Positions 4,540-20,030 of a DNA stretch of 43,396 nucleotides are shown here, one piece after another. The translations under genes and the position numbers were made by a program. Position 1 is the stretch's first letter; each line of letters begins with the position of its first letter. Under the pieces are notes generated by a model. The model made no database searches and was not told the DNA's origin. It was given only the letters and a program-made list of their open reading frames with translations. The DNA is taken from positions 1 to 43,396 of the forward strand of contig VAXB01000026.1 of NCBI GenBank assembly GCA_005883995.1, read 5' to 3'. The stretch is from Actinomycetota bacterium. Its GTDB lineage: Bacteria; Actinomycetota; Thermoleophilia; Gaiellales; Gaiellaceae.

Positions 4540-6150
4540 CTAAACCGCGCCTGCGCGAGCCAGGTCGAGCGTACGCGAGGAGCGGAATCGCTCGAGGAAG
4601 CGGCGGTCGTGGGTGACGAGGACGACCGTTCCGTCGTAGCCGTCGAGCGCGCGTTCGAGCTCTTCGATCGCGGCGATGTCGAGATGGTTCGTCGGCTCGT
4701 CGAGCACGAGGCAGTTGACGCCGCGTGCGGCGAGAAGTGCGAGCACCGCGCGCGTCCGCTCGCCGGGTGATAGCGACTCCGGCCGGCGCAGGACGTCGTC
4801 GGCGCCGAGGCCGAACTTCGCCAGCAGCGTGCGCGCCGTCTCCGGCTCCGAGCCGGCACCGTCGACGAACGCTGCGAGGAGCGTTCGCCCGACGAAATCG
4901 GTCCGCACCTGCCGAAGCTCGCCGAGGGTCGTGCCGGGGCCGACCCACCGCTCGCCGTGCTCCAGCGGCAGACGCCCCATTAGCGCGTCGATCAGCGTCG
5001 TCTTGCCGCTCCCGTTCGGGCCGGTCACGGCGAGGCGATCCCCCCAGCCGAGGTCGAGATCCATCGGCCCGAGGACGAACGAGCCACGGCGCACGATCGC
5101 GTCATGGAGCCGGACGACGATGTCGCCTGCACGGCGCCCGCTTCCGAGGCCGAGCCGGAGCTCCCACGGCTCGTAGGGCTTCTCCGCAGCGCCGAGCCGG
5201 TCGATTCGTCCGCCGATCGCACTCTTGACGTCCTTCGTCTTCTTCTTCTTACGGCCCTGCCCATAGCCGCGACGCTCCCAGTCCTGCATCCGGTGCAGCT
5301 GCGTCTCGAGCCGCTGTTTCTCCTCGGCGTACGCGCCGTAGGCCTCGTACTGCTGCGCGCGCGCAAGCTCGCGCGCGCGTTCGTACTCGCTCCAGCTGCC
5401 CGCGTACTCGCGCGCGCCGCGTTTCCATTCGTCGAGCTCGACAACGCGGTTGACCGTCCGGTCGAGGAACTCGCGGTCGTGCGAGACGATCACCGCCGCG
5501 CCCGGCAGCTCGCGGACGAACCGCTCGAGCCGCGCGAGCCCGTCGTAGTCGAGATCGTTCGTCGGCTCGTCGAGCAGAAAAACGTCGAAGCGGGCGAGCA
5601 GAATCGCCGCGAGCTGCACGCGCGCCGTCTCGCCGCCGGACAGCGCGCGCAGCGGCGTGTCGAGCGGCGCGCGAAGGCCGACGTCGGCGCACACGGCCGA
5701 GGCGCGTGCCTCGAGGTCCGTTCCGCCGAGGTCGAGGAACTGTTCGAGTGCCGAAGCATGGACGTCGACGGCGGACCGGTCCGACTCGAGCCTCGTCGTC
5801 AGCAGATCGAGCCGCGCCGACGCCGCCGCGACGCCCGTTCGCCGCGCGAGCGATTCCCAGATCGTCTCGGACGCGTCGACGTCACGCTCCTGCGGCAGAT
5901 AGCCGACGGCAAGCTCCGGCGGCGATCGCCGGACGTTGCCGACGTCCGGCTCGTCCCGGCCCGCGAGGACTCGGAGCAGCGTCGACTTGCCGACGCCGTT
6001 CGGCCCGACGAGCCCGATCCGGGCGCCGGGCGCGACGACGAGCGTCACGTCGGCCAGGACGAGCTGTGCCCCGTGGTGCTTCGTGATGTTCGCGGCGACG
6101 AGCGTGCCGGACGATGGTGGCAAGACGGACCTCCTACGAGCGGGAGACAC
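4540..6150 (-). CDS. ABC-F family ATP-binding cassette protein (start codon uncertain)
   Basis: Two ABC domains without TM segments: GPNGVGKSTLLRVLAG, LSGGETARVQLA, LLDEPTNDLD; GPNGSGKTTLIDALMG, LSPGERTRAVLALLA, LDEPTNHLD. Confidence 0.9.
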   Translation of the reverse strand: MSPARRRSVLPPSSGTLVAANITKHHGAQLVLADVTLVVAPGARIGLVGPNGVGKSTLLRVLAGRDEPDVGNVRRSPPELAVGYLPQERDVDASETIWESLARRTGVAAASARLDLLTTRLESDRSAVDVHASALEQFLDLGGTDLEARASAVCADVGLRAPLDTPLRALSGGETARVQLAAILLARFDVFLLDEPTNDLDYDGLARLERFVRELPGAAVIVSHDREFLDRTVNRVVELDEWKRGAREYAGSWSEYERARELARAQQYEAYGAYAEEKQRLETQLHRMQDWERRGYGQGRKKKKTKDVKSAIGGRIDRLGAAEKPYEPWELRLGLGSGRRAGDIVVRLHDAIVRRGSFVLGPMDLDLGWGDRLAVTGPNGSGKTTLIDALMGRLPLEHGERWVGPGTTLGELRQVRTDFVGRTLLAAFVDGAGSEPETARTLLAKFGLGADDVLRRPESLSPGERTRAVLALLAARGVNCLVLDEPTNHLDIAAIEELERALDGYDGTVVLVTHDRRFLERFRSSRTLDLARAGAV

Positions 6151-6228: not shown

Positions 6229-6999
6229 CTAACGAATCGGAAACGATCGACGAGCGAGCGCGGGCAGCACCTGGGACGTGACCCATACGGGGGTGACGGC
6301 GTACCGCGCGCTGTAGCGGTAGCTGCCGTCGGCGCGCCGCAACCGCCCCAGGTACCGGTACGCCGCGCTGCCGGGGCGCTTGCCCGCGGCGAGGAACGCC
6401 TGGATCGCCCACGCCGACGACTGGGCGTCGGACCCGCGGCCGGCGGTCAGCTCGAACCCGCCGTCTTTGTTTTGGCGGTGGCGGAGGTACACGAGCGCCC
6501 GCCGGATCGGCAGGCCCGCCACGCGCGCAGCCCGCAACGCCTGCACGACGGCCGCGGTGTCGTTCGAATCCGGCGCCACGCCCGCAGCCCACCCCCAGCC
6601 GCCGCCGGGCGACTGGTGCGCGAGGAGGAACCTGACCGTCGTTCGCGGCAGCGGACGCCGGGCGCCCGCGAGCGCGAGAAGCTTCCAGGCGGCAGCGTTG
6701 ACCGCACCGCCCCCCGAGATGCGCTCGACGCGCGCCAGCAGCGCATCGGACGCATGGACTTCCGCCAACGCGCCGAGCGCGATCGCAGTGGGCGTCTGCA
6801 GCGCGTCCTCGTGGGCCCGGAGGTACGAATCGTCGACCGTCGCGCCGCTCGCGCGCAGACCGAGCAATGCCCACGCGGTGAGCGTGACGTCCGGTGTCCC
6901 GCCCGTCTCCGCAAACGCACCCGACGGCAAGTGGTGCGACGCGACGAATTGCTGCGGCGTCACGACCAGCGCTGCGGCTGCGGCGAACTCCGCGATCAC
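6229..6999 (-). CDS. prenyltransferase/squalene-oxidase-repeat (alpha6/alpha6 toroid) protein; candidate cobalamin-binding alpha-domain-like protein
   Basis: Repeats GAFAETGGTPDVTLTAWALLGL, GGGWGWAAGVAPDSNDTAAVVQAL, DGGFELTAGRGSDAQSSAWAIQAFL, DGSYRYSARYAVTPVWVTSQVLPAL; GTG start overlaps the TGA of the upstream ECF-S gene. Confidence 0.8.
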   Translation of the reverse strand: MIAEFAAAAALVVTPQQFVASHHLPSGAFAETGGTPDVTLTAWALLGLRASGATVDDSYLRAHEDALQTPTAIALGALAEVHASDALLARVERISGGGAVNAAAWKLLALAGARRPLPRTTVRFLLAHQSPGGGWGWAAGVAPDSNDTAAVVQALRAARVAGLPIRRALVYLRHRQNKDGGFELTAGRGSDAQSSAWAIQAFLAAGKRPGSAAYRYLGRLRRADGSYRYSARYAVTPVWVTSQVLPALARRSFPIR

Positions 7000-7670
7000 A
7001 CCCAGACTACCTCCGCGCGAAGGCGACGCCCGAAGCGCTCGAGCAGGCGTAGCAGTTCCGGGCCGGCGACGAGCGCGAAGACAACGTTGCCGACCGCGTG
7101 CGACACGTCGAACGGGAATCCGCGCACCTCGTTCGCGACGAACGTCGCCCAGGTGTGCTGCTCGTAGTAGGCCGACCAGCTCCAGATGTCCATCCCGGCG
7201 CTGAACGCGAGACCGAGGAGGCCCAACACAGCTGCGAACACGAGCCGACGGCGCAGGAGCGGCGCGAGCGCTGCGCCGATCGCGCCGCACGTGCCCCAAG
7301 CGAGCATCTGCCACAGCGTCCACGGGCCTTGCCCGAGCGCAAAGTTCGACACGAACGGCGCGACGAGCCCGACGCCGACGCCGGCGCGGACGCCGAGCGC
7401 CGCACCGGTCGCAACGGTGATCAGCGTGACCGGCTGCACGCCGGGCACCGGATGGAGGATGACATGGCCCACGGCGGCCACGGCGCCGAGCGTGGCGACG
7501 ACCGCGACCTCCTTCGCGCGATCGGGCCCGTGCTCGAGCCAGGCGAGCCCGCCTGCGACTATGGCGAGGGCCGCGAGGAGCATTGGCAGCGCGATCGCAT
7601 GCGGGTTCGCCGTGGCCACGCCGACCGCTGCGGCGGCAAGCGCGACGGCGGCGAGGGCCGCGTTACGCAT
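6996..7670 (-). CDS. ECF transporter S component (substrate-binding membrane subunit)
   Basis: Six-helix-type hydrophobic protein MRNAALAAVALAAAAVGVATANPHAIALPMLLAALAIVAGG...HPVPGVQPVTLITVATGAALGVRAGVGVGLVAPFVSNFALGQGPWTLWQMLAWG; next to EcfA/EcfT. Confidence 0.85.
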   Translation of the reverse strand: MRNAALAAVALAAAAVGVATANPHAIALPMLLAALAIVAGGLAWLEHGPDRAKEVAVVATLGAVAAVGHVILHPVPGVQPVTLITVATGAALGVRAGVGVGLVAPFVSNFALGQGPWTLWQMLAWGTCGAIGAALAPLLRRRLVFAAVLGLLGLAFSAGMDIWSWSAYYEQHTWATFVANEVRGFPFDVSHAVGNVVFALVAGPELLRLLERFGRRLRAEVVWV

Positions 7671-9024
7671 GGACGAGCTCCGCCGCGGCTCCAAGCTCGA
7701 TTCTGCGGTCTGCGACCGCGTGGGCGAAGCCGAGGTCGTGTGTGACGACGAGCGTCGCGCGTTCGTGCGCCTGTGCGCGCAGGAATGCGGCGAGCGCCTG
7801 CTTGCGCTCCGGATCGGCGCCCTTTGTCGGCTCGTCGAGGACGAGCAGATCGGGCTCGGGCGCGAGGACCGCGGCGAGAGCGAGCCGCTCACGCTCGCCG
7901 CTCGAGAGGTCATGCGGATGACGCTCCACGGCGCTGCCAAGGCCGACGCTCTCGAGTGCAGCGCGGGCGCGCCGCCGGTCGCCGCGGATGGCGAGGGCGA
8001 CTTCGTCCTCCGCACGGTCTCGGACAGAATGGCGCCCGGCGTCCTGCAGCAGCATCGTCGCCCGTCCGCGCCGCGTCACGGTCCCGCGCTGCGGCTCGAG
8101 CAGCCCCGCACAGAGCTTGGCGATCGTGGTCTTGCCGCTCCCGTTCGGTCCGAGCAGCGCGACGATCTCGCCGCTCCGGAGCTCGAGGTCGAAGCCGTCG
8201 ACGGCCGGAACGTCGCGGTACGCGTAGGAGGCGGCCCGGAGCGAGCAGACGACGTCGCCCGGCGACGGCGAGCCCGACGGCGGCTCCGGAGTCGCCACGT
8301 ATGCAGGACGATGTCGCTCGAGCCACGCAACAGCGTCCTCCACTCGGGCGTCGCACACGACGCGGCCGCCGTCGACGAAGAGGACACGGTCGGCGTGCTC
8401 GAGCGCATTCGCGGGACGCTGCTCCGACAGGACGACTGCGAGACCGTGATCGTGCGCCTGCCGCGTTGCGAGGTCGAGCAGCTCGCCTGCGGCGTCGGGA
8501 TCGAGTTGCGACGTCGGCTCGTCGAGGACGAGCAGCGTCGGCTCGAGGGCGAGCGCCCCTGCGAGGCACACGCGCTGCAGCTCGCCGCCGGAGAGATCGT
8601 GCACCCGTCGTCCGGCCAGGTGCGCGACGCCGAGCGCGTCCAGTGCGGCGTGGGTGCGCGCGCGGATCGCGTTTGCCGGGGCGCCTGTGTTCTCGAGCCC
8701 GAAGGCGACCTCTCCGTCGACGCGCTCGCGGACGAGCTGCTCCTCGGGATCCTGGAACACGTAGGCGATCGCACCCGCAAGCTCCGACGGCCGGTGACGC
8801 CGCGTATCGGCGCCGCCGAGCTCGACGCGGCCCGCGAACGTGCCGCCGTGGAAGTGAGGCACTAGGCCGCCGAGCGCCCTGAGCAGCGTCGACTTGCCCG
8901 ATCCCGACGGCCCGAGAACGAGCACGACCTCTCCCGCCTCGAACTCGAGCGATACGTCCGCAAGCGCCGGCCGCGCGGGGCCCGGATACGTGAACGACAA
9001 ACCGTCGACACGCGCTACAGCCAC
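7663..9024 (-). CDS. ECF transporter ATPase, two fused ATP-binding domains (EcfA1-EcfA2 fusion)
   Basis: [16 protein letters not shown]...LSGGELQRVCLAGAL...LLVLDEPTSQLD and GPNGSGKTTIAKLCAG...LSSGERERLALAAVL...LLVLDEPTKGAD in one ORF; GTG start. Confidence 0.92.
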   Translation of the reverse strand: MAVARVDGLSFTYPGPARPALADVSLEFEAGEVVLVLGPSGSGKSTLLRALGGLVPHFHGGTFAGRVELGGADTRRHRPSELAGAIAYVFQDPEEQLVRERVDGEVAFGLENTGAPANAIRARTHAALDALGVAHLAGRRVHDLSGGELQRVCLAGALALEPTLLVLDEPTSQLDPDAAGELLDLATRQAHDHGLAVVLSEQRPANALEHADRVLFVDGGRVVCDARVEDAVAWLERHRPAYVATPEPPSGSPSPGDVVCSLRAASYAYRDVPAVDGFDLELRSGEIVALLGPNGSGKTTIAKLCAGLLEPQRGTVTRRGRATMLLQDAGRHSVRDRAEDEVALAIRGDRRRARAALESVGLGSAVERHPHDLSSGERERLALAAVLAPEPDLLVLDEPTKGADPERKQALAAFLRAQAHERATLVVTHDLGFAHAVADRRIELGAAAELVHA

Positions 9025-9710
9025 AGCACTCCCAGTGCGACGACCGCGGCGGCGAACGCAACGGCGGCTCGATCCGCGTTGCTCCACGACGCCCGCGGCA
9101 GGCGTGTCGTCGCTCCGCGGCCGTAGCCTCGCGCCTCCATCGCCTCGGCGAGGTTGAGCGCGCGCTCGAGCGAGCCCGCGAGCAACGGCGACAGCAGGCG
9201 CGTGCGCGTGCGCACACCTCGCACCTCGATGCCACGCGCGCGCATCGCCTCGGCGAGGGCGCGCGCGTCGCGGTCGAGCGTCGGCGCGAGCCGTGTCGCG
9301 AGGACGACCGTGAGCACGAACCGCCGGGCGAACCGGGTGCCCTCGAGCAGGCGGTCATGATCGAGGACGAGCGCGTAGACCGCGAACGCGAGACCGACTG
9401 CAGCGAAGCGCAACGCGCCGTGTGCACCGCTCCACAGCTCTTCGCGCGTCACGTCGAGTTCACCCACCACCGGGACGATGGGACCAGTCCAGATCGGGTG
9501 CGAGCCGAGTGTCTCGACGAACGGCGTGATCACGAAGATCGTGGCTGCCGAAAATGCGATCCCGGCGACGTACACCCACGCGTGCCGCGCCGCCCGGACG
9601 GCGACGACGGTGAGGACGACGACGATCACCGCGAGCGATGCGGTGTGCGTCGCGAGCAGCGCCGCGGCGACGACGGCGCCGAGGAGTGCGAGCGCGGGGC
9701 CGGGGCTCAT
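9015..9710 (-). CDS. ECF transporter transmembrane component EcfT
   Basis: Multi-TM protein with EcfT signatures ARALAEAMRARGIEVRG and LNLAEAMEARGYGRG; ATGA overlap with upstream gene. Confidence 0.9.
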   Translation of the reverse strand: MSPGPALALLGAVVAAALLATHTASLAVIVVVLTVVAVRAARHAWVYVAGIAFSAATIFVITPFVETLGSHPIWTGPIVPVVGELDVTREELWSGAHGALRFAAVGLAFAVYALVLDHDRLLEGTRFARRFVLTVVLATRLAPTLDRDARALAEAMRARGIEVRGVRTRTRLLSPLLAGSLERALNLAEAMEARGYGRGATTRLPRASWSNADRAAVAFAAAVVALGVLWL

Positions 9711-10411
9711 CCGCCGACCTCGTAGCGGAAGCGTGCGAAGGTCAGGTGCGAGGCAAGCCAGGCCGCGTCGCCCGCGAAGCGGAACCGCACCGGATCGCCG
9801 GCGCCGTCCTGTGGCCGTTGCCGCGCGACCAACGAGGGTCTCTGTCCGTCGGCCCCCGAGACCAGAACGAGCGTGTTCGCCTTCGCCGGAGCCGCTCCGG
9901 CTCCGCGTGTCGCGCTGGCGTGAAGGAGCGACGCGAGGTGCTCCGCCGACGCGCGGTCGCGCGGATTCGAATAGACGACGCGCCCCGGCAGCCGCTTCCC
10001 GTCCCAGCCGTGGAGGAACGGCTCCGGGAACGCGCCGACCACCACCTGTTGGCGCAACGCGTACGACCAGTCGCGGAAGTCCCACCACTCGACGTCCCCC
10101 GGATGCAGGCGGTACTCGGACGCGCTGCGGTCGGCCTCGTAGCCGTTGACGAAGTAGAACCAGTCGTGGCGGCCGGTGAGCGATCCCGCGACCCCGTCGA
10201 TCGACTGCACGTACCGTCCGCCGTAGCGGGTGCTGATCTTCGCGACTCGGTCGAGTGCCTGCATCGCGGTCAAGCCTGCGGGGACGTGCCGGACGAGCAC
10301 CACGCGGGCGCCGCGGTCGCGCGTCACCCAGAGCGTCGCGCGACCGTGCGTGCTGCCGCAGCCGGCGAGCGCCGCAAGGGCGAGGCCGACCGCGATCAGA
10401 CGTGGGCTCAC
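9707..10411 (-). CDS. DUF4430 (transcobalamin C-terminal-like) lipoprotein
   Basis: VSPRLIAVGLALAALAGCGS lipobox; DUF4430-like MQALDRVAKISTRYGGRYVQSIDGV...HDWFYFVNGYEADRSASEYRLHPGDVEWWDFRDW; GTGA overlap with upstream gene. Confidence 0.8.
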   Translation of the reverse strand: MSPRLIAVGLALAALAGCGSTHGRATLWVTRDRGARVVLVRHVPAGLTAMQALDRVAKISTRYGGRYVQSIDGVAGSLTGRHDWFYFVNGYEADRSASEYRLHPGDVEWWDFRDWSYALRQQVVVGAFPEPFLHGWDGKRLPGRVVYSNPRDRASAEHLASLLHASATRGAGAAPAKANTLVLVSGADGQRPSLVARQRPQDGAGDPVRFRFAGDAAWLASHLTFARFRYEVGG

Positions 10412-11028
10412 GGCAGCGCGTTCGAGCGCACCGCTCCTGCGAGTGTCGCGCGGACGAGCAGCCCGCGGTGGACGCCGATGCATGCACGGCCATTCGGCAT
10501 CCGCACGGTCCGCAGCGACCCGACGCGAAGCGCCGCCCCCGCCGCCGGCGCGGTCTTCCCGGCGTCGTCCTGCGCGAGCGCGGTGTAGCACCGCCCCGTC
10601 CGCCGGAGCACGAGCGTCTTCGGGCCACCGGCAGCGCCGAACTGCGCCCAGTACCAGAGCACGGTGTCCCCTGCCGCGAGTTTCACCTGGTCGGCGCCGA
10701 CCGGCGGAGAGACGCCGTTCACCTTGAACACCCATCCGGTCTGTCCGGCGGACCCGTACCGCCCCACCTGGTCGACATACGGACCGAAGCCGGTCTGGGT
10801 CACGTGGTAGAAGAACTCGCCGACCGCGCTCGCGGTCTCGAGCGCGTCGAGCGCGTTCTCGGGCAGCGCATTCGCACGCGGCGAGGTGACGTCGAGGACT
10901 GGATCGCCGGCACCGAAGATCGTCCGGGTCTTGCCCTCGACGCGGACGTGGACGCGAACCGCGTACGCGGCAGGGACGGCGAGCAGCGCGGCCGCGAGCA
11001 CCACGAGAAGCGCGACAGGTCGAAACAC
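10408..11028 (-). CDS. DUF4430 (transcobalamin C-terminal-like) secreted protein
   Basis: Signal peptide VFRPVALLVVLAAALLAVPAAYA; ALDALETASAVGEFFYHVTQTGFGPYVDQVGRYGSAGQTGWVFKVNGVSPPVGADQVKLAAGDTVLWYW; GTG start with strong SD (ggagga). Confidence 0.85.
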   Translation of the reverse strand: MFRPVALLVVLAAALLAVPAAYAVRVHVRVEGKTRTIFGAGDPVLDVTSPRANALPENALDALETASAVGEFFYHVTQTGFGPYVDQVGRYGSAGQTGWVFKVNGVSPPVGADQVKLAAGDTVLWYWAQFGAAGGPKTLVLRRTGRCYTALAQDDAGKTAPAAGAALRVGSLRTVRMPNGRACIGVHRGLLVRATLAGAVRSNALP

Positions 11029-11049
11029 GAATCCTCCTTCCGCGAGGGG

Positions 11050-11222
11050 TTCGAATCGGTTCCGACGGCGGAGGTCTTCTGACTCGGGGCGCCCTCCCGA
11101 CGCCGCCTTCCCAGCCTGTTCGGCCAGTGGCACGTCGGCGCGGGAGCGTCTCCCCTCACAGCGGCGGGACCGTTCCGGACTCGCACCGGATTCCCTGACC
11201 GCTCGCCGGTTGTGGCCGGGAG
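11050..11222 (-). promoter_or_regulatory. Cobalamin (AdoCbl-class) riboswitch
   Basis: Minus strand reads ...GGGAATCCGGTGCGAGTCCGGAACGGTCCCGCCGCTGTGAGGGGAGA...GCCACTGGCC...CTGGGAAGGCGGCG...GAGTCAGAAGACCTCCGCC..., the canonical cobalamin riboswitch conserved elements, ending just upstream of the DUF4430 gene SD. Confidence 0.96.
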
Positions 11223-11238
11223 ACTAGCATCGCCGCCC

Positions 11239-11580
11239 GTGGCACGATCGCGCACGTTTGCACTCTGGGCACCGGTGGTCGCGTGGGCATGCGTGATCTT
11301 CGCGTTCTCCTCGATCCCCGCTCTCTCGAGCGGCCTCGGGACCTGGGACTTCGTGTTGCGGAAGTGCGCACACATCACCGAGTACGCGATCCTCGCGGCG
11401 CTGTTGATGCGCGCGATCGGCCGCGCCGGGCCGGCGTTCCTGACCGCGGTCGCGTACGCCGCGACGGACGAGTTCCACCAGCACTTCGTCCGGGGCCGAC
11501 ACGCGTCGCCGGTCGACGTCGCGATCGACGCATTCGGCGCAGCGCTCGGGCTCCTGGTGTGGACGCGGGCACGGCGCTGA
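11239..11580 (+). CDS. VanZ family protein
   Basis: MARSRTFALWAPVVAWACVIFAFSSIPALS...LRKCAHITEYAILAALLMRA...AYAATDEFHQHFVRGRHASPVDVAIDAFGAALG. Confidence 0.9.
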   Translation: MARSRTFALWAPVVAWACVIFAFSSIPALSSGLGTWDFVLRKCAHITEYAILAALLMRAIGRAGPAFLTAVAYAATDEFHQHFVRGRHASPVDVAIDAFGAALGLLVWTRARR

Positions 11581-12223: not shown

Positions 12224-13267
12224 CTACGGCGTCAGCTTGTAGATCTGGCCGCTGCCGGACGCGATGTAGAGCTCGCCGCTCGCATCGACGCCGAAGCTCG
12301 ACGGACGCGTCACATTCCCCTCGCTGCGGACGTCGACCGCTCGGCCACTCTCCATCCGGAGGCTCCAGACCGTCCCGCTGCAGTAGTCGGCGAAGAAGTA
12401 CCGGCCGGCGATGGCCGGGATCGCCTTGCCGCGATACACGTAGCCGCCAGTAACCGAACAGCCCTGGTCGTGCCCATACACGTACACGGGGAACACGAGC
12501 TCGCCGCGCTTCACCGGCGTGGCGTTGCGGTAGCGCGCGCGGCCCTCGTAGACGTTCCAGCCGAAGTTGACGAGCGACGCCAGCCGAGAGCGCGCCCGGT
12601 AGTCGATCTCCTCCCAGGCGCTCTGCCCGACGTCGGCGATGTAGAGGTCACCGTTTGCGCTGTCGAAGGAGAATCGCCACGGGTTGCGCAGCCCGTACGC
12701 CGCGATTCCCCAGGTCGGCTTTCTCGCGAGCGGGTTCGTGCGAAGGAGCTTCCCGAGGCGGATCGACAGGTTCTGCGCGCGGTTACCGGGATCCCCTGCG
12801 GAGCCGCCGTCGCCCATGCCGACGTAGAGGCGCCCGTCGGGGCCGAATTGCAACTGGCCGCCGTTGTGGTTGGCGTACGGCTGCTTCACGAACAGCAACT
12901 GGCGCGCGCTCGAGACGATCGCCTTCCCGTTGCGGGAGCGGAACTCGACGACGCGGGTGTTGCCGTTCACGTCGGTGTAGTCGACGTAGAAGCGATGGTT
13001 CTGCTTGTAGCGCGGGCTGAACGCCATCGAGAGCAGCCCGCGCTCGCCGCCACTGGCGACGCGTGAGCGGATGTCGAGGAAGGTCCCGGCGAGACGCCCC
13101 TGGACGAGGTACCGGATGCGGCCCGGCTGCTCGACGACGTAGAGGCGGTTCGGCTCGGCCGGCGTCGAGGCGACGTACGTCGGCGAGTCGAAGCCGCGCG
13201 CGTACGGGCGGATCGTCACGGGCGGTGCTGCCATTGCCACGGCGGCCCCGAGAACGGCCAGGATCAT
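12224..13267 (-). CDS. PQQ-dependent sugar dehydrogenase (glucose/sorbosone dehydrogenase family)
   Basis: LYVVEQPGRIRYL, GGERGLLSMAFSPRY, NHNGGQLQFGPDGRLYVGMGDGGSAGDPGNRAQN, LRNPWRFSFD, DVGQSAWEEID, NFGWNVYEG. Confidence 0.92.
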   Translation of the reverse strand: MILAVLGAAVAMAAPPVTIRPYARGFDSPTYVASTPAEPNRLYVVEQPGRIRYLVQGRLAGTFLDIRSRVASGGERGLLSMAFSPRYKQNHRFYVDYTDVNGNTRVVEFRSRNGKAIVSSARQLLFVKQPYANHNGGQLQFGPDGRLYVGMGDGGSAGDPGNRAQNLSIRLGKLLRTNPLARKPTWGIAAYGLRNPWRFSFDSANGDLYIADVGQSAWEEIDYRARSRLASLVNFGWNVYEGRARYRNATPVKRGELVFPVYVYGHDQGCSVTGGYVYRGKAIPAIAGRYFFADYCSGTVWSLRMESGRAVDVRSEGNVTRPSSFGVDASGELYIASGSGQIYKLTP

Positions 13268-14841
13268 ACGGCTGCCAGATCCTTCGACCGCACCCACGGG
13301 CCCGGCGGCATGAGCAGCTGCTCGACGTGCAGGTACGCGAGCCCCACTAGCGGCGCCTCCGTCCATCGCTCGATGCAGACGAACCGCGGCCGCCACTCCG
13401 GGAAGAACTTTGCGTTGAAGCTGTGGAGCCGCTCCAGCTGGAAGAAACCGTCGAACCGGAGCAGGAACGCGCGGGCGGTGCGCTGCCGAAGCGCCGAGCC
13501 GGCGTCCGCGCGCAGAACCCGCCCGAACACGGCGAAGTTCAGCGACAGCTCCGAGACGTGGTGCTCGCGCGCCCAGCCGATCGCCTCGACGATCAGGAAC
13601 TCCATCAGCCCGTTCGGCGTCTCGCGCCGGCGGCGCATCGTCGCGAGTGACCAGCCCCTGCATGCCGGCGACGGAACGAGGTGCAGGAAGCCGCCGACGC
13701 GCCCGTCGGGCCCTTCGGCGACGGCAACGACGCTGTCCGGGTAGTCCCACAACGCGTCCATCGTCATCGTGAAGCCGCGCTCGGGCCAGCGGCCGCGCCA
13801 CTCGGAAGAGACGCTCGCGATCTCGTTGCGAAGGTCGGCGTCGACGTCGCCGACCGTGAGCATGCGCACGCTGTAGCCCGCCTTCCGCAAGCGAGTCACC
13901 GACTGTCTCACCTTGCGGATCGGGCGCCCTTCGAGCGAGAACCCGCCGGGGCGCACGATCGCTTCGTCGCCGAGGTAGACCGCGTGGAAACCGAGCCGCC
14001 GGTAAAGCGGCAGTAGCTCTGCGCTCGTACCGAGCGCTGCGATCCGCCAACCCGAGGCGTGCGCGATCCGTCGGAATTCCTTCAACAGGTCCTCCATCTC
14101 GGCGCGGTCGCCGATCGGGTCGCCGCTGAGGAGCGCTGTGCCGTTGACGGCGCGGTACGCGACGAGTGTCCGGTGCGACGGCGAGAACAGGTACTGCTTG
14201 TCACCGCGGAGCGAGAAGTAGGCGAGGCTGTCGCGGCCGCGTTCGCGCACGAGGCGCCTCGCCCGCGCGCCCTCCTCCGCGGTGTGCTCGCCCTTCCCTG
14301 CGAGCGGGCTCAACCACAGGTAGAGCGCGCGGAAGGTGAGCAGCACGCCGAGCACCAACAGCGCCGACTCGATGTGGCTGGACGCGCCCGTCGAGTCGAA
14401 ATCGCGAAGCGCGAGGAGCGCAGCGACGGCAGTGAGCGCGACGAGGACCCGGGCGAGCGGTCGCAGGATCGCAGGCTCGCCGGGCGCGACGAACTCGCTG
14501 CGGTGACGCCAGAGCGCGAGCAGGAGCAGCGCACTCACCGTCGCCTCCTCGAAGTCGAGGCCCTTCACGAGATGAGCAACGGCCGCACCCGCGACAACGC
14601 AGACCGCGAGCGACCAGGCCCGGCGCTTGCGGCGGGCGAGCCCGCGCGAGAGCCAGATCAGCGCGAGGCCGAACGCGAGCGAGGCCACGCGTGCCGCCTC
14701 CGGCAGACCGGGCGGCAGGACGCCGCGGACGAGCTGGAACCGATCGGCGAATTCCGGCGTCAGCGCCGAGATCACGCCGATCAAGCCTGCGAAGGCGGCG
14801 CCGAGTCCGAGGAAGAGCGGTGCCCGCCGGTGCGGCCTCAC
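13264..14841 (-). CDS. phosphatidylglycerol lysyltransferase domain protein (MprF C-terminal DUF2156-like) with N-terminal TM region
   Basis: Multi-TM N-terminus; RGRDSLAYFSLRGDKQYLFSPSHRTLVAYRAVNGTALLSGDPIGDRAEMEDLLKEF...LSLNFAVFGR...FNAKFFPEWRPRFVCIE. Confidence 0.88.
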   Translation of the reverse strand: MRPHRRAPLFLGLGAAFAGLIGVISALTPEFADRFQLVRGVLPPGLPEAARVASLAFGLALIWLSRGLARRKRRAWSLAVCVVAGAAVAHLVKGLDFEEATVSALLLLALWRHRSEFVAPGEPAILRPLARVLVALTAVAALLALRDFDSTGASSHIESALLVLGVLLTFRALYLWLSPLAGKGEHTAEEGARARRLVRERGRDSLAYFSLRGDKQYLFSPSHRTLVAYRAVNGTALLSGDPIGDRAEMEDLLKEFRRIAHASGWRIAALGTSAELLPLYRRLGFHAVYLGDEAIVRPGGFSLEGRPIRKVRQSVTRLRKAGYSVRMLTVGDVDADLRNEIASVSSEWRGRWPERGFTMTMDALWDYPDSVVAVAEGPDGRVGGFLHLVPSPACRGWSLATMRRRRETPNGLMEFLIVEAIGWAREHHVSELSLNFAVFGRVLRADAGSALRQRTARAFLLRFDGFFQLERLHSFNAKFFPEWRPRFVCIERWTEAPLVGLAYLHVEQLLMPPGPWVRSKDLAAV

Positions 14842-17964: not shown

Positions 17965-18147
17965 TCACGGCCGACGTGCGCCGCCACGCCGCAGGACGTA
18001 CAGTCGACCCGCGCCGGCGCCGAGGAAGAGCAGCCCGAACAGATAACCGATGGCGCCGCCCACGATCGCGGTCTCGACGATCAAGGCGATCCCGAGCCCG
18101 ACGAAGACGAGCGCGAGCGCGGCCGTCGCCGCTGCGTACGCCCTCAT
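17965..18147 (-). CDS. small membrane protein
   Basis: 60 aa MRAYAAATAALALVFVGLGIALIVETAIVGGAIGYLFGLLFLGAGAGRLYVLRRGGARRP; ATG overlaps the end of the permease gene. Confidence 0.65.
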   Translation of the reverse strand: MRAYAAATAALALVFVGLGIALIVETAIVGGAIGYLFGLLFLGAGAGRLYVLRRGGARRP

Positions 18148-20030
18148 GCCGCCCGGCGTCCGGCAGCGACCATGACCCGGCATGGCGCGTGCTTCAGCAC
18201 GAAGTCCACCGTGTCGCTGAAGATCGAGCGCCGCGGCGTGTCCCGGCGCGGCGCACCCATCACGATGATCTCCGAGTGGCGCCGTTCCGCCTCGTCGACG
18301 ATCGCGCGCCCGGCGGTGCGAGCGCGAACCAGCCGCCCGATCACGTCGACGCCGTAAAGCTCGCCGATCGCCCGCGCTCCGTCGAGCACCTCGTTCGCGC
18401 GTTCCTCCTCCTCCTCGAGCCGCGTCGCGAGGGGCAGCTCCAGTGGAATCGTGACGACCGCGACGGCGGCGATCGAGGCGCGACGCTCGGCGGCGAGGCG
18501 GCACGCGACGTCCACTGCCTCCTGCGACATCCGGCCCGGTTTGACCGGCACGAGGATGCTGCGGTACTCGAGCGCCACCGCAGGGCCGATCAGCACCGGC
18601 GCGCGGAGCGTCTCGCGCAACGGCGCGCGCACGACGTACCGGCGGTAGGCGGCGTACGAAGCAAGCCCGAGCGCAAGCCAGCCGATGCCGGTCCAGCGTG
18701 CTCCCGGCTTCTGCACGACGACGACCAACCACGCCGCCCCCGTCCCGAGCGCACCGAAGATCGCGAACAGCGGCCAGTCGATTCCCCGGACGCGGAGATT
18801 CGGCCACGGACGGAATGCCACCTCCTCGCGCTTCGCGCGCAGCGCGATGATCGAGACGTGGGCGATCGTGAACGACAGCATCGCGCCAAACGCGTAGAGG
18901 TCCCCGAGGAAGTTCACCTGCCCAGGAAGCAGGACCGCAATCGAAGCGATGCCGGCAAACACGACGAGTGACAGCCAAGGTGTCTTGAACTTCGGATGCA
19001 ACCGCCGGAAGGCGCCTGGGATCTGCCGGTAGCTCGCCATCGCGTAGGTGATGCGCGACGCGCCGATAACGCCGGCGTTCGTCGCGATGAAGAGGATCGT
19101 CGCGGCGAGGATTCCGACGTAGATCTTCGCTGCGCTCAGGACGGAGCCGTGCAGGCCGAGGTTCTCGACGAGACCGAGGACGGGGTCGTTCGCGAAGCCG
19201 CCGCGATCAGGCGGAAGGCCGAGCAGCGTCTCGTAGCCGCCGCCGGCAGCGCGGTGCACCGGCAGCGCCGAGAGCGCGATCAGCGGGAGCGTGAAGTAGA
19301 TCGCGAACACCGCGATCGCGACCCAGCGGATCGACCGCGGAATGTCGCGCGGCGGGTCGCGCGCCTCCTCTGCGAGGTTCGAGACGGTCTCGATGCCGGT
19401 GTACGCGATCATCGCAATCGGGATCGCGAGGAAGAACGCCGACCACGTCGGCGCCACGCCCCAGTGGAGGTTCGTCGAGAAGACGATGTGCGGGTGGAAG
19501 ATGAGTGCGAACCCGATCGCGACGAGCAGCAGCTGCGTACCGAAGTCGACGACGGCGAGGAAGATGTTCAGCCGTGCCGCCTCCTTGATCCCGACGATGT
19601 TGAGGAGCACGAGGATGACGATCACCGCGACGCCGCCGATGATGTCCCACGGGTTCGTCTTCAACGGCTCCCAGAAGATCGACAGGTAGTGCGGCACGAA
19701 GAACGCGGAGATCGCGATCGTGACGACGTAATTGAGCATCTGCGCCCACGCCGCGGCGAACGAAACGAGCTCGTTGAAGGCATGGCGCGCGAATGACGAC
19801 GATCCCCCCGCCTCGGGATAGCGGACGGTTCCTTCCGCGTACGTCGCGGCGGTCGCGGCGAAGATCATGCCGCTGATCACGAAGACGAGCGGCGTCAGCC
19901 CGAGCGCGATGCCTGCGACGAGCCCGAGCGCGTAGTAGATCGACGAGCCGACGTTGCCGTACGCAGTCGCGAAGAGCGCCGGCGTGCCGAGGACGCGCTC
20001 GAGCCCTTGCTGACGCCGCCGCCGAGGCAC
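18144..20030 (-). CDS. APC-superfamily permease with C-terminal USP domain (intact paralog)
   Basis: MPRRRRQQGLERVLGTPALFATAYGNVGSSIYYALGLVAG...YTGIETVSNLAEEARDPPRDIP...ATILFIATNAGVIGASRITYAMA...SIFSDTVDFVLKHAPCRVMVAAG. Confidence 0.92.
   Translation of the reverse strand: MPRRRRQQGLERVLGTPALFATAYGNVGSSIYYALGLVAGIALGLTPLVFVISGMIFAATAATYAEGTVRYPEAGGSSSFARHAFNELVSFAAAWAQMLNYVVTIAISAFFVPHYLSIFWEPLKTNPWDIIGGVAVIVILVLLNIVGIKEAARLNIFLAVVDFGTQLLLVAIGFALIFHPHIVFSTNLHWGVAPTWSAFFLAIPIAMIAYTGIETVSNLAEEARDPPRDIPRSIRWVAIAVFAIYFTLPLIALSALPVHRAAGGGYETLLGLPPDRGGFANDPVLGLVENLGLHGSVLSAAKIYVGILAATILFIATNAGVIGASRITYAMASYRQIPGAFRRLHPKFKTPWLSLVVFAGIASIAVLLPGQVNFLGDLYAFGAMLSFTIAHVSIIALRAKREEVAFRPWPNLRVRGIDWPLFAIFGALGTGAAWLVVVVQKPGARWTGIGWLALGLASYAAYRRYVVRAPLRETLRAPVLIGPAVALEYRSILVPVKPGRMSQEAVDVACRLAAERRASIAAVAVVTIPLELPLATRLEEEEERANEVLDGARAIGELYGVDVIGRLVRARTAGRAIVDEAERRHSEIIVMGAPRRDTPRRSIFSDTVDFVLKHAPCRVMVAAGRRAA

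Follow-up and report, generated by a model that had tools for sequence, protein, structure and literature searches.

The stretch of DNA analysed in this study (the window) comprises 43,396 nucleotides of contig VAXB01000026.1, from a member of the Gaiellaceae (Actinomycetota; GenBank assembly GCA_005883995.1). Its minus strand carries a cobalamin riboswitch followed by six genes, which encode two exported DUF4430 proteins, the components of an energy-coupling factor (ECF) transporter and an alpha/alpha toroid protein (Table 1). Here we describe this locus from a soil bacterium, which is predicted to join a B12-controlled pump to secreted look-alikes of both halves of human transcobalamin.

Table 1 Features of the riboswitch-controlled operon in the window
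Feature	Position	Strand	Evidence and remarks
Cobalamin riboswitch aptamer RF00174	11072..11196	-	Heads the operon; cmscan 86.5 bits, E 4.2e-20
Gene 1, exported DUF4430 protein (DUF4430a; transcobalamin beta-domain type), 206 aa	10408..11028	-	PF14478 1.2e-12; GTG start after GGAAGGAGG
Gene 2, DUF4430 lipoprotein (DUF4430b), 234 aa	9707..10411	-	PF14478 3.6e-11; lipobox LAALAGC
Gene 3, EcfT transmembrane coupling subunit	9015..9710	-	PF02361 CbiQ 1.8e-14
Gene 4, fused double ATPase EcfA-EcfA (EcfAA)	7663..9024	-	PF00005 in two stretches, 3.9e-55
Gene 5, ECF S component, CbrT-like	6996..7670	-	phmmer to 6FNP chain A 6.6e-15
Gene 6, alpha/alpha toroid protein, 256 aa	6229..6999	-	PF13243 SQHop_cyclase_C 4.5e-7

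A preliminary description had read the locus as a riboswitch followed by six overlapping minus-strand genes, and every element that it named was found in place. Neighbouring genes overlap by 4-10 bases, and the riboswitch and genes together (11196 to 6229) form a putative single transcriptional unit. The riboswitch exceeds the Rfam gathering cutoff of 31.5 bits and was the only one of its kind detected by an Rfam scan of the 2.68-Mb assembly. Some 40 bases separate the end of the aptamer from the start codon of gene 1, with a strong GGAAGGAGG, and no terminator-like stem was found between riboswitch and start codon on the minus strand; translational control is, for these reasons, the likelier mode. 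EcfT, two ATPase domains and an S component are encoded together, as in ECF transporters. The Walker A, signature and Walker B motifs are legible in both halves of EcfAA, whose best NCBIfam match, ECF_ATPase, lies under the cutoff of that model. The N-terminus of DUF4430a reads as Sec-type; DUF4430a and DUF4430b, which score 48.5 and 43.8 bits against PF14478 (curated cutoff 23.8), are the only DUF4430 proteins of the whole assembly.

The S component is weakly recognised by Pfam and clearly matches CbrT. Searched as a single sequence against the PDB, its only real match was chain A of 6FNP (6.6e-15, over positions 56-216), and a profile built with 22 relatives reached 6FNP at 6.5e-26, the next S component being 4hzu at 0.02; homology to CbrT is full-length and stands above that to other S components. 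The entry 6FNP represents ECF-CbrT of Lactobacillus delbrueckii, which binds cobalamin and cobinamide and for which ATP-driven transport of both has been assayed (PMC5997447). The host assembly of the window (85.7% complete) encodes the methionine synthase MetH, a PduO-type adenosyltransferase (5.8e-57), two CarH-like B12-binding regulators of the light-regulator type (L113, L115) and a further B12-binding domain, whereas neither CbiC nor a permease of the FecCD/BtuC family was found in it. The host therefore uses B12 and probably cannot make it; it also shows no BtuC-type importer, an absence to be read with the incompleteness of the assembly in mind. The host of ECF-CbrT is similar in using B12, in having a PduO-type adenosyltransferase and in lacking a BtuCDF-type permease, although the window differs in its dedicated operon, with its own EcfT, fused EcfAA, riboswitch, and toroid and DUF4430 accessories.

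B12 is thus a likely and well-supported predicted cargo, and the cobalamin import proposed earlier agrees with the CbrT-type S component, the riboswitch and a B12-using host in which CbiC and FecCD were not found. That the system instead imports cobalt, another metal or another vitamin is very improbable. Although EcfT is classed with CbiQ, cobalt uptake is likewise placed under cobalamin riboswitches in known cases, and one toroid clade adjoins a CbiM cobalt operon, the S component is not CbiM-like and matched CbrT alone in the PDB; moreover, as CbiC was not found in the 85.7% complete assembly, the host is not expected to require cobalt for making B12 de novo.

The toroid was searched in 61 related genomes, with 38 matches; a further 84,980 species genomes were scanned and yielded 80 loci, of which nine carry a toroid-DUF4430 fusion, leaving 71. 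The S gene adjoins the toroid gene in 37 of the 71, S component and toroid share one open frame in 25, and neither is the case in nine. Among these nine, the toroid lies at or near a contig end in L051, L070, L086 and L089, the match covers only the end of the toroid in L090, and L054, L056, L057 and L060 form a separate motif group. Among the 45 loci that include EcfT, 35 encode two DUF4430 proteins and four encode three; three genes rather than two were seen ahead of the ECF genes in L062, L075, L099 and L101. A cobalamin riboswitch heads the genes in all 20 actinobacterial relatives with an intact 5' end: in 20 of 21 actinobacterial loci scanned, an RF00174 match of 55 to 103 bits precedes gene 1, and the remaining locus, L084, is cut off inside that gene. 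Since the gene array recurs in dozens of genomes, a chance arrangement is excluded.

Two kinds of natural gene fusion bear on the role of the toroid. The first joins S component and toroid in one chain, in the 25 loci counted above, mostly of Solirubrobacterales. A hydrophobic segment lies between the two domains in all nine such fusions inspected; it would make the fused toroid extracytoplasmic if S has its usual six helices, a cleavable internal signal being an alternative reading of the segment. These one-chain loci support a pairing of toroid and S component in nature. The cultured Svornostia abyssi (L078) carries the same genes, with its S reading frame split over two open reading frames in translation.

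The second kind joins toroid and DUF4430 in a single exported polypeptide some 600 aa long, found in nine loci, of which seven are titled as Patescibacteria lineages and one (L091) has a split frame. All nine fusions follow ftsZ and nrdR, and in each a riboswitch of the cobalamin/adenosylcobalamin (AdoCbl) clan lies in the gap upstream (six over the curated cutoff, three below). The shared synteny means that the nine loci count as one lineage and not as nine events. Matches to NrdJ, the B12-dependent ribonucleotide reductase, were found in seven of the nine genomes, five of them above cutoff. In L096 (5964-10247) and the other eight loci, the fusion is succeeded by a gene for a small membrane-anchored protein. 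These loci are a possible route of B12 acquisition in tiny genomes without a recognisable CbrT.

The fused protein of L096 was modelled with moderate confidence (predicted local distance difference test, pLDDT, 75; predicted template modelling score, pTM, 0.49). When the model was compared with 350,542 PDB chains using Foldseek, ranks 1-15 were all transcobalamin, intrinsic factor or haptocorrin (E 7.6e-11 to 1.2e-8), with about 400-440 columns spanning both domains, and cyclases followed at 2.9e-7. These animal carriers, the best PDB matches of the fusions, have the same domain order in one chain, with an identity of about 12-16% in the fold match. Residues 290-381 form two strands, a helix, a hairpin and further strands, the pattern given for the transcobalamin-like clade by Burroughs et al. 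(PMC1796856). A profile of the fusions reached the beta domain of transcobalamin-2 in the PDB (5no0) at 1.8e-4, compared with 0.027 for the single sequence. The modelled fold thus supports the view that toroid and DUF4430 form a transcobalamin-like two-domain protein in nature.

The toroid of the window was modelled by AlphaFold2 (AF2) with pLDDT 95.0 and pTM 0.91 and shows the alternating helices of a toroid; its best fold matches were small squalene-hopene-cyclase-like toroids, drimenyl-PP synthase and the beta subunit of farnesyltransferase. The preliminary description had tied its own proposal to the toroid not matching cyclases better than cobalamin-binding proteins. Cyclases were the better match, which does not settle the matter: by sequence, the toroid half of the transcobalamin-like fusion, too, is matched best by cyclases. 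In class II terpene cyclases, the middle Asp of the DxDD motif is the acid. The corresponding position of the window toroid reads DSND, with Asn at the general-acid site, which makes enzyme activity of this protein unlikely. The motif DSNDTA occurs in 28 separate toroids, that of the window included, and in all nine DUF4430-fused toroids, and this common motif links the clade of the window to the fusions. Among S-fused toroids the motif varies, reading DVDD in 13 and otherwise GIDD, SIDD, AVDD, DADS, DPDS or DSDM; for these, the motif alone leaves enzyme activity possible, and a loss of the cyclase motif across the entire toroid family was considered but dropped in view of the 13 DVDD relatives.

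The reading of the toroid as an active enzyme, a class II terpene cyclase or a prenyltransferase that lies in the operon incidentally, is accordingly close to refuted. The best PDB matches of the toroid and its Pfam SQHop_cyclase match speak for such an enzyme, but the toroid is a single 256-aa barrel, Asn occupies the general-acid position in the window, in most separate and in all DUF4430-fused relatives, and the S-fused relatives do not hold DxDD constant. Moreover, relatives carry signal peptides, and the toroid adjoins or is fused with an ECF S component in 62 of 71 loci. Identity as a terpene cyclase was thus rejected on motif and context, despite fold matches that favour cyclases. The N-terminus of the window toroid is short and lacks a clear n-region; judged by relatives with obvious signal peptides, the protein is probably exported. 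Polar residues are conserved at the starts of inner helices (D144, N146, T148, Q193, S194, T236, T241, Q243) and might mark a ligand mouth, weakly so given that inner-helix ends are conserved in general (3.09 bits, against 2.96 bits at other ends).

The usual view of ECF transporters is that the substrate is bound by the S component alone. For the window, we favour, with a probability of roughly 70%, a riboswitch-controlled ECF importer of corrinoids in which B12 is sandwiched between the toroid and one or both DUF4430 proteins, which deliver it to the S component. Falling AdoCbl would lift the block imposed by the riboswitch, so that the operon products are made. DUF4430a would be secreted and DUF4430b anchored by a lipid, while the catalytically altered toroid would be exported and dock on the S component. 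B12 would then be sandwiched between the toroid and a DUF4430 domain, as it is by the two halves of transcobalamin, and the captured B12 (or cobinamide) would be handed to the CbrT-like S component, the membrane binder of the vitamin; EcfT and the fused EcfAA ATPases would drive its release inside. Regulation and the final transport step are supported by strong homology, docking on the S component by the S-toroid fusions, and the clamp by the toroid-DUF4430 fusion and its transcobalamin fold match. The joint clamp by the separate proteins of the window, the hand-over of the vitamin and the choice of DUF4430 paralogue are inferred.

An unlikely alternative, though more plausible than the cyclase and cobalt readings, is a B12 ECF importer without a joint clamp, in which the DUF4430 proteins alone scavenge or tether B12 and the toroid has another job, as an assembly factor of the S component or as a peptidoglycan or receptor adaptor. 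It would account for one toroid accompanying two DUF4430 genes in most complete loci (35 of the 45 with EcfT) and for the frequency with which toroids are joined to the S component instead of DUF4430. It is also consistent with a Lacticaseibacillus DUF4430 lipoprotein that belongs to a predicted cobalamin ECF system and is encoded near the B12-dependent reductase gene, with no toroid mentioned (PMC9963975). Against it speak the natural toroid-DUF4430 fusions behind AdoCbl-type riboswitches, with transcobalamin as their best PDB fold, and the polar residues conserved at the inner-helix starts of the toroid.

Several results weigh against a joint clamp that delivers B12 to the S component. CbrT transports in proteoliposomes without accessories of the toroid or DUF4430 type (PMC5997447), so transport itself does not require such accessories. 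Both by fold and by sequence, the toroid taken by itself lies closer to squalene-hopene and drimenyl-PP cyclases than to transcobalamin, which was absent among its 50 listed matches. A profile of window-type DUF4430 domains gave no transcobalamin match in the PDB, the best match being 3u7z at 0.18. In the fold match of L096, the root-mean-square deviation is 27 A and the TMt about 0.44, with the relative placement of the domains wrong or not fixed, and the moderately confident model thus gives no clamp geometry. In the fusion-bearing Patescibacteria no CbrT-like S component was found, a weak negative as there was no positive control there. Furthermore, L056 and L057, with full flanks, have a lone toroid without an operon of the window type.

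Transcobalamin, intrinsic factor and haptocorrin are built of the same two fold classes as the toroid and DUF4430 proteins. The window differs from these carriers in that the parts are separate polypeptides, with predicted delivery to an ECF transporter and not by endocytosis. The idea of a split transcobalamin is partly supported, the two fold classes being fused, with a transcobalamin-like fold, in relatives; the toroid of the window alone stands nearer to terpene cyclases than to the cobalamin-binding alpha domain. Toroid and beta domain share one polypeptide in the nine relatives only, being separate genes in the window, and a direct sequence link of the window DUF4430 domains to transcobalamin in the PDB was tried and not found.

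Much of this had been foreseen. Burroughs et al. defined in 2007 a transcobalamin-like SLBB clade with exported members in Gram-positive bacteria, toroid fusions on either side and paired paralogues, noted operons with CbiO and CbiQ and the lack of key B12 synthesis enzymes, and proposed both B12 scavenging and a transfer of toroid-SLBB to animals (PMC1796856). Those systems resemble the window in their exported DUF4430/SLBB proteins, often two per operon, CbiO/CbiQ-like transporters and toroid partners; the toroid cases named there are SLBB-toroid fusions, mainly of low-GC Gram-positives, whereas the toroid of the window is separate and those of some relatives are fused to the S component. 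Likewise, the DUF4430 protein LGG_02295 of Lacticaseibacillus rhamnosus is predicted as an 'additional lipoprotein component of putative cobalamin ECF transporter', with no toroid reported (PMC9963975). The novelty that the preliminary description had claimed for the arrangement was therefore too strong, its core prediction having been published in 2007. The split-transcobalamin idea is for the most part a rediscovery, to which the CbrT match, the riboswitches, two types of fusion and the fold search add strength. No report of a separate toroid subunit, an S-toroid fusion or a Patescibacteria form was found in the open-access literature; three features appear to be new, namely the toroid as a separate subunit, its joining to a CbrT-like S component in one chain, and the Patescibacteria form under riboswitch control.

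The natural fusions suggest a way in which bacteria capture B12 and an origin of the animal carrier. We give even odds to a wider proposal, namely a class of ECF transporters with an extracytoplasmic split-transcobalamin capture unit, its toroid docked on or fused to S, and with the Patescibacteria fusion as a living relative of the ancestor of the animal carriers. If this is true, ECF transporters can carry a substrate-capture module outside the membrane. Through specific gene fusions, a B12 S component of proven type is tied to parts of the transcobalamin kind, so that small soluble proteins can serve to test directly the predicted capture step, the partner on which the toroid docks, and the bacterial ancestry of transcobalamin and intrinsic factor.

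Related arrangements were also observed. In L056 (6247-8753), the lone toroid (motif DAGDTA), with no DUF4430, is divergent to a CbiM cobalt ECF operon; a lone toroid of this related clade also occurs in L057, with L054 and L060 in the same motif group, and the clade may link toroids to cobalt uptake. In wider Actinobacteria, including large Streptomyces-like genomes, a toroid of the SCO2321 family and a protein of the SCO2322 family accompany EcfT, EcfAA and EcfS, and two of three such loci show a weak upstream match to an AdoCbl-type riboswitch, below threshold. Both of these Streptomyces families, named in NCBIfam by locus tag only (NF053823 and NF040672), lie upstream of the ECF module in L146-L148, so that, as in the window, a toroid and a second exported protein precede EcfT-EcfAA-EcfS. 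The SCO2321 toroid differs from that of the window in its 405 aa and C-terminal membrane anchor, and SCO2322 differs from the DUF4430 proteins in having no Pfam DUF4430 match; the window toroid scores 69.9 bits against NF053823, under the curated cutoff of 300. This gene context suggests a corrinoid role for both families.

In the window, a VanZ-like gene (11212-11580, plus strand) is divergent from the operon and starts 16 bases from the end of the aptamer. Immediately downstream of the operon (4540-6150, minus strand) lies a gene for a protein of ABC-F type, which has two ATP-binding cassettes and no membrane part; several relatives (L038, L042, L047, L090) have a similar gene as neighbour. 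Additionally, the minus strand encodes a phosphatidylglycerol lysyltransferase-type protein (13264-14841) and an amino acid permease that carries a fused universal stress domain (18144-20030).

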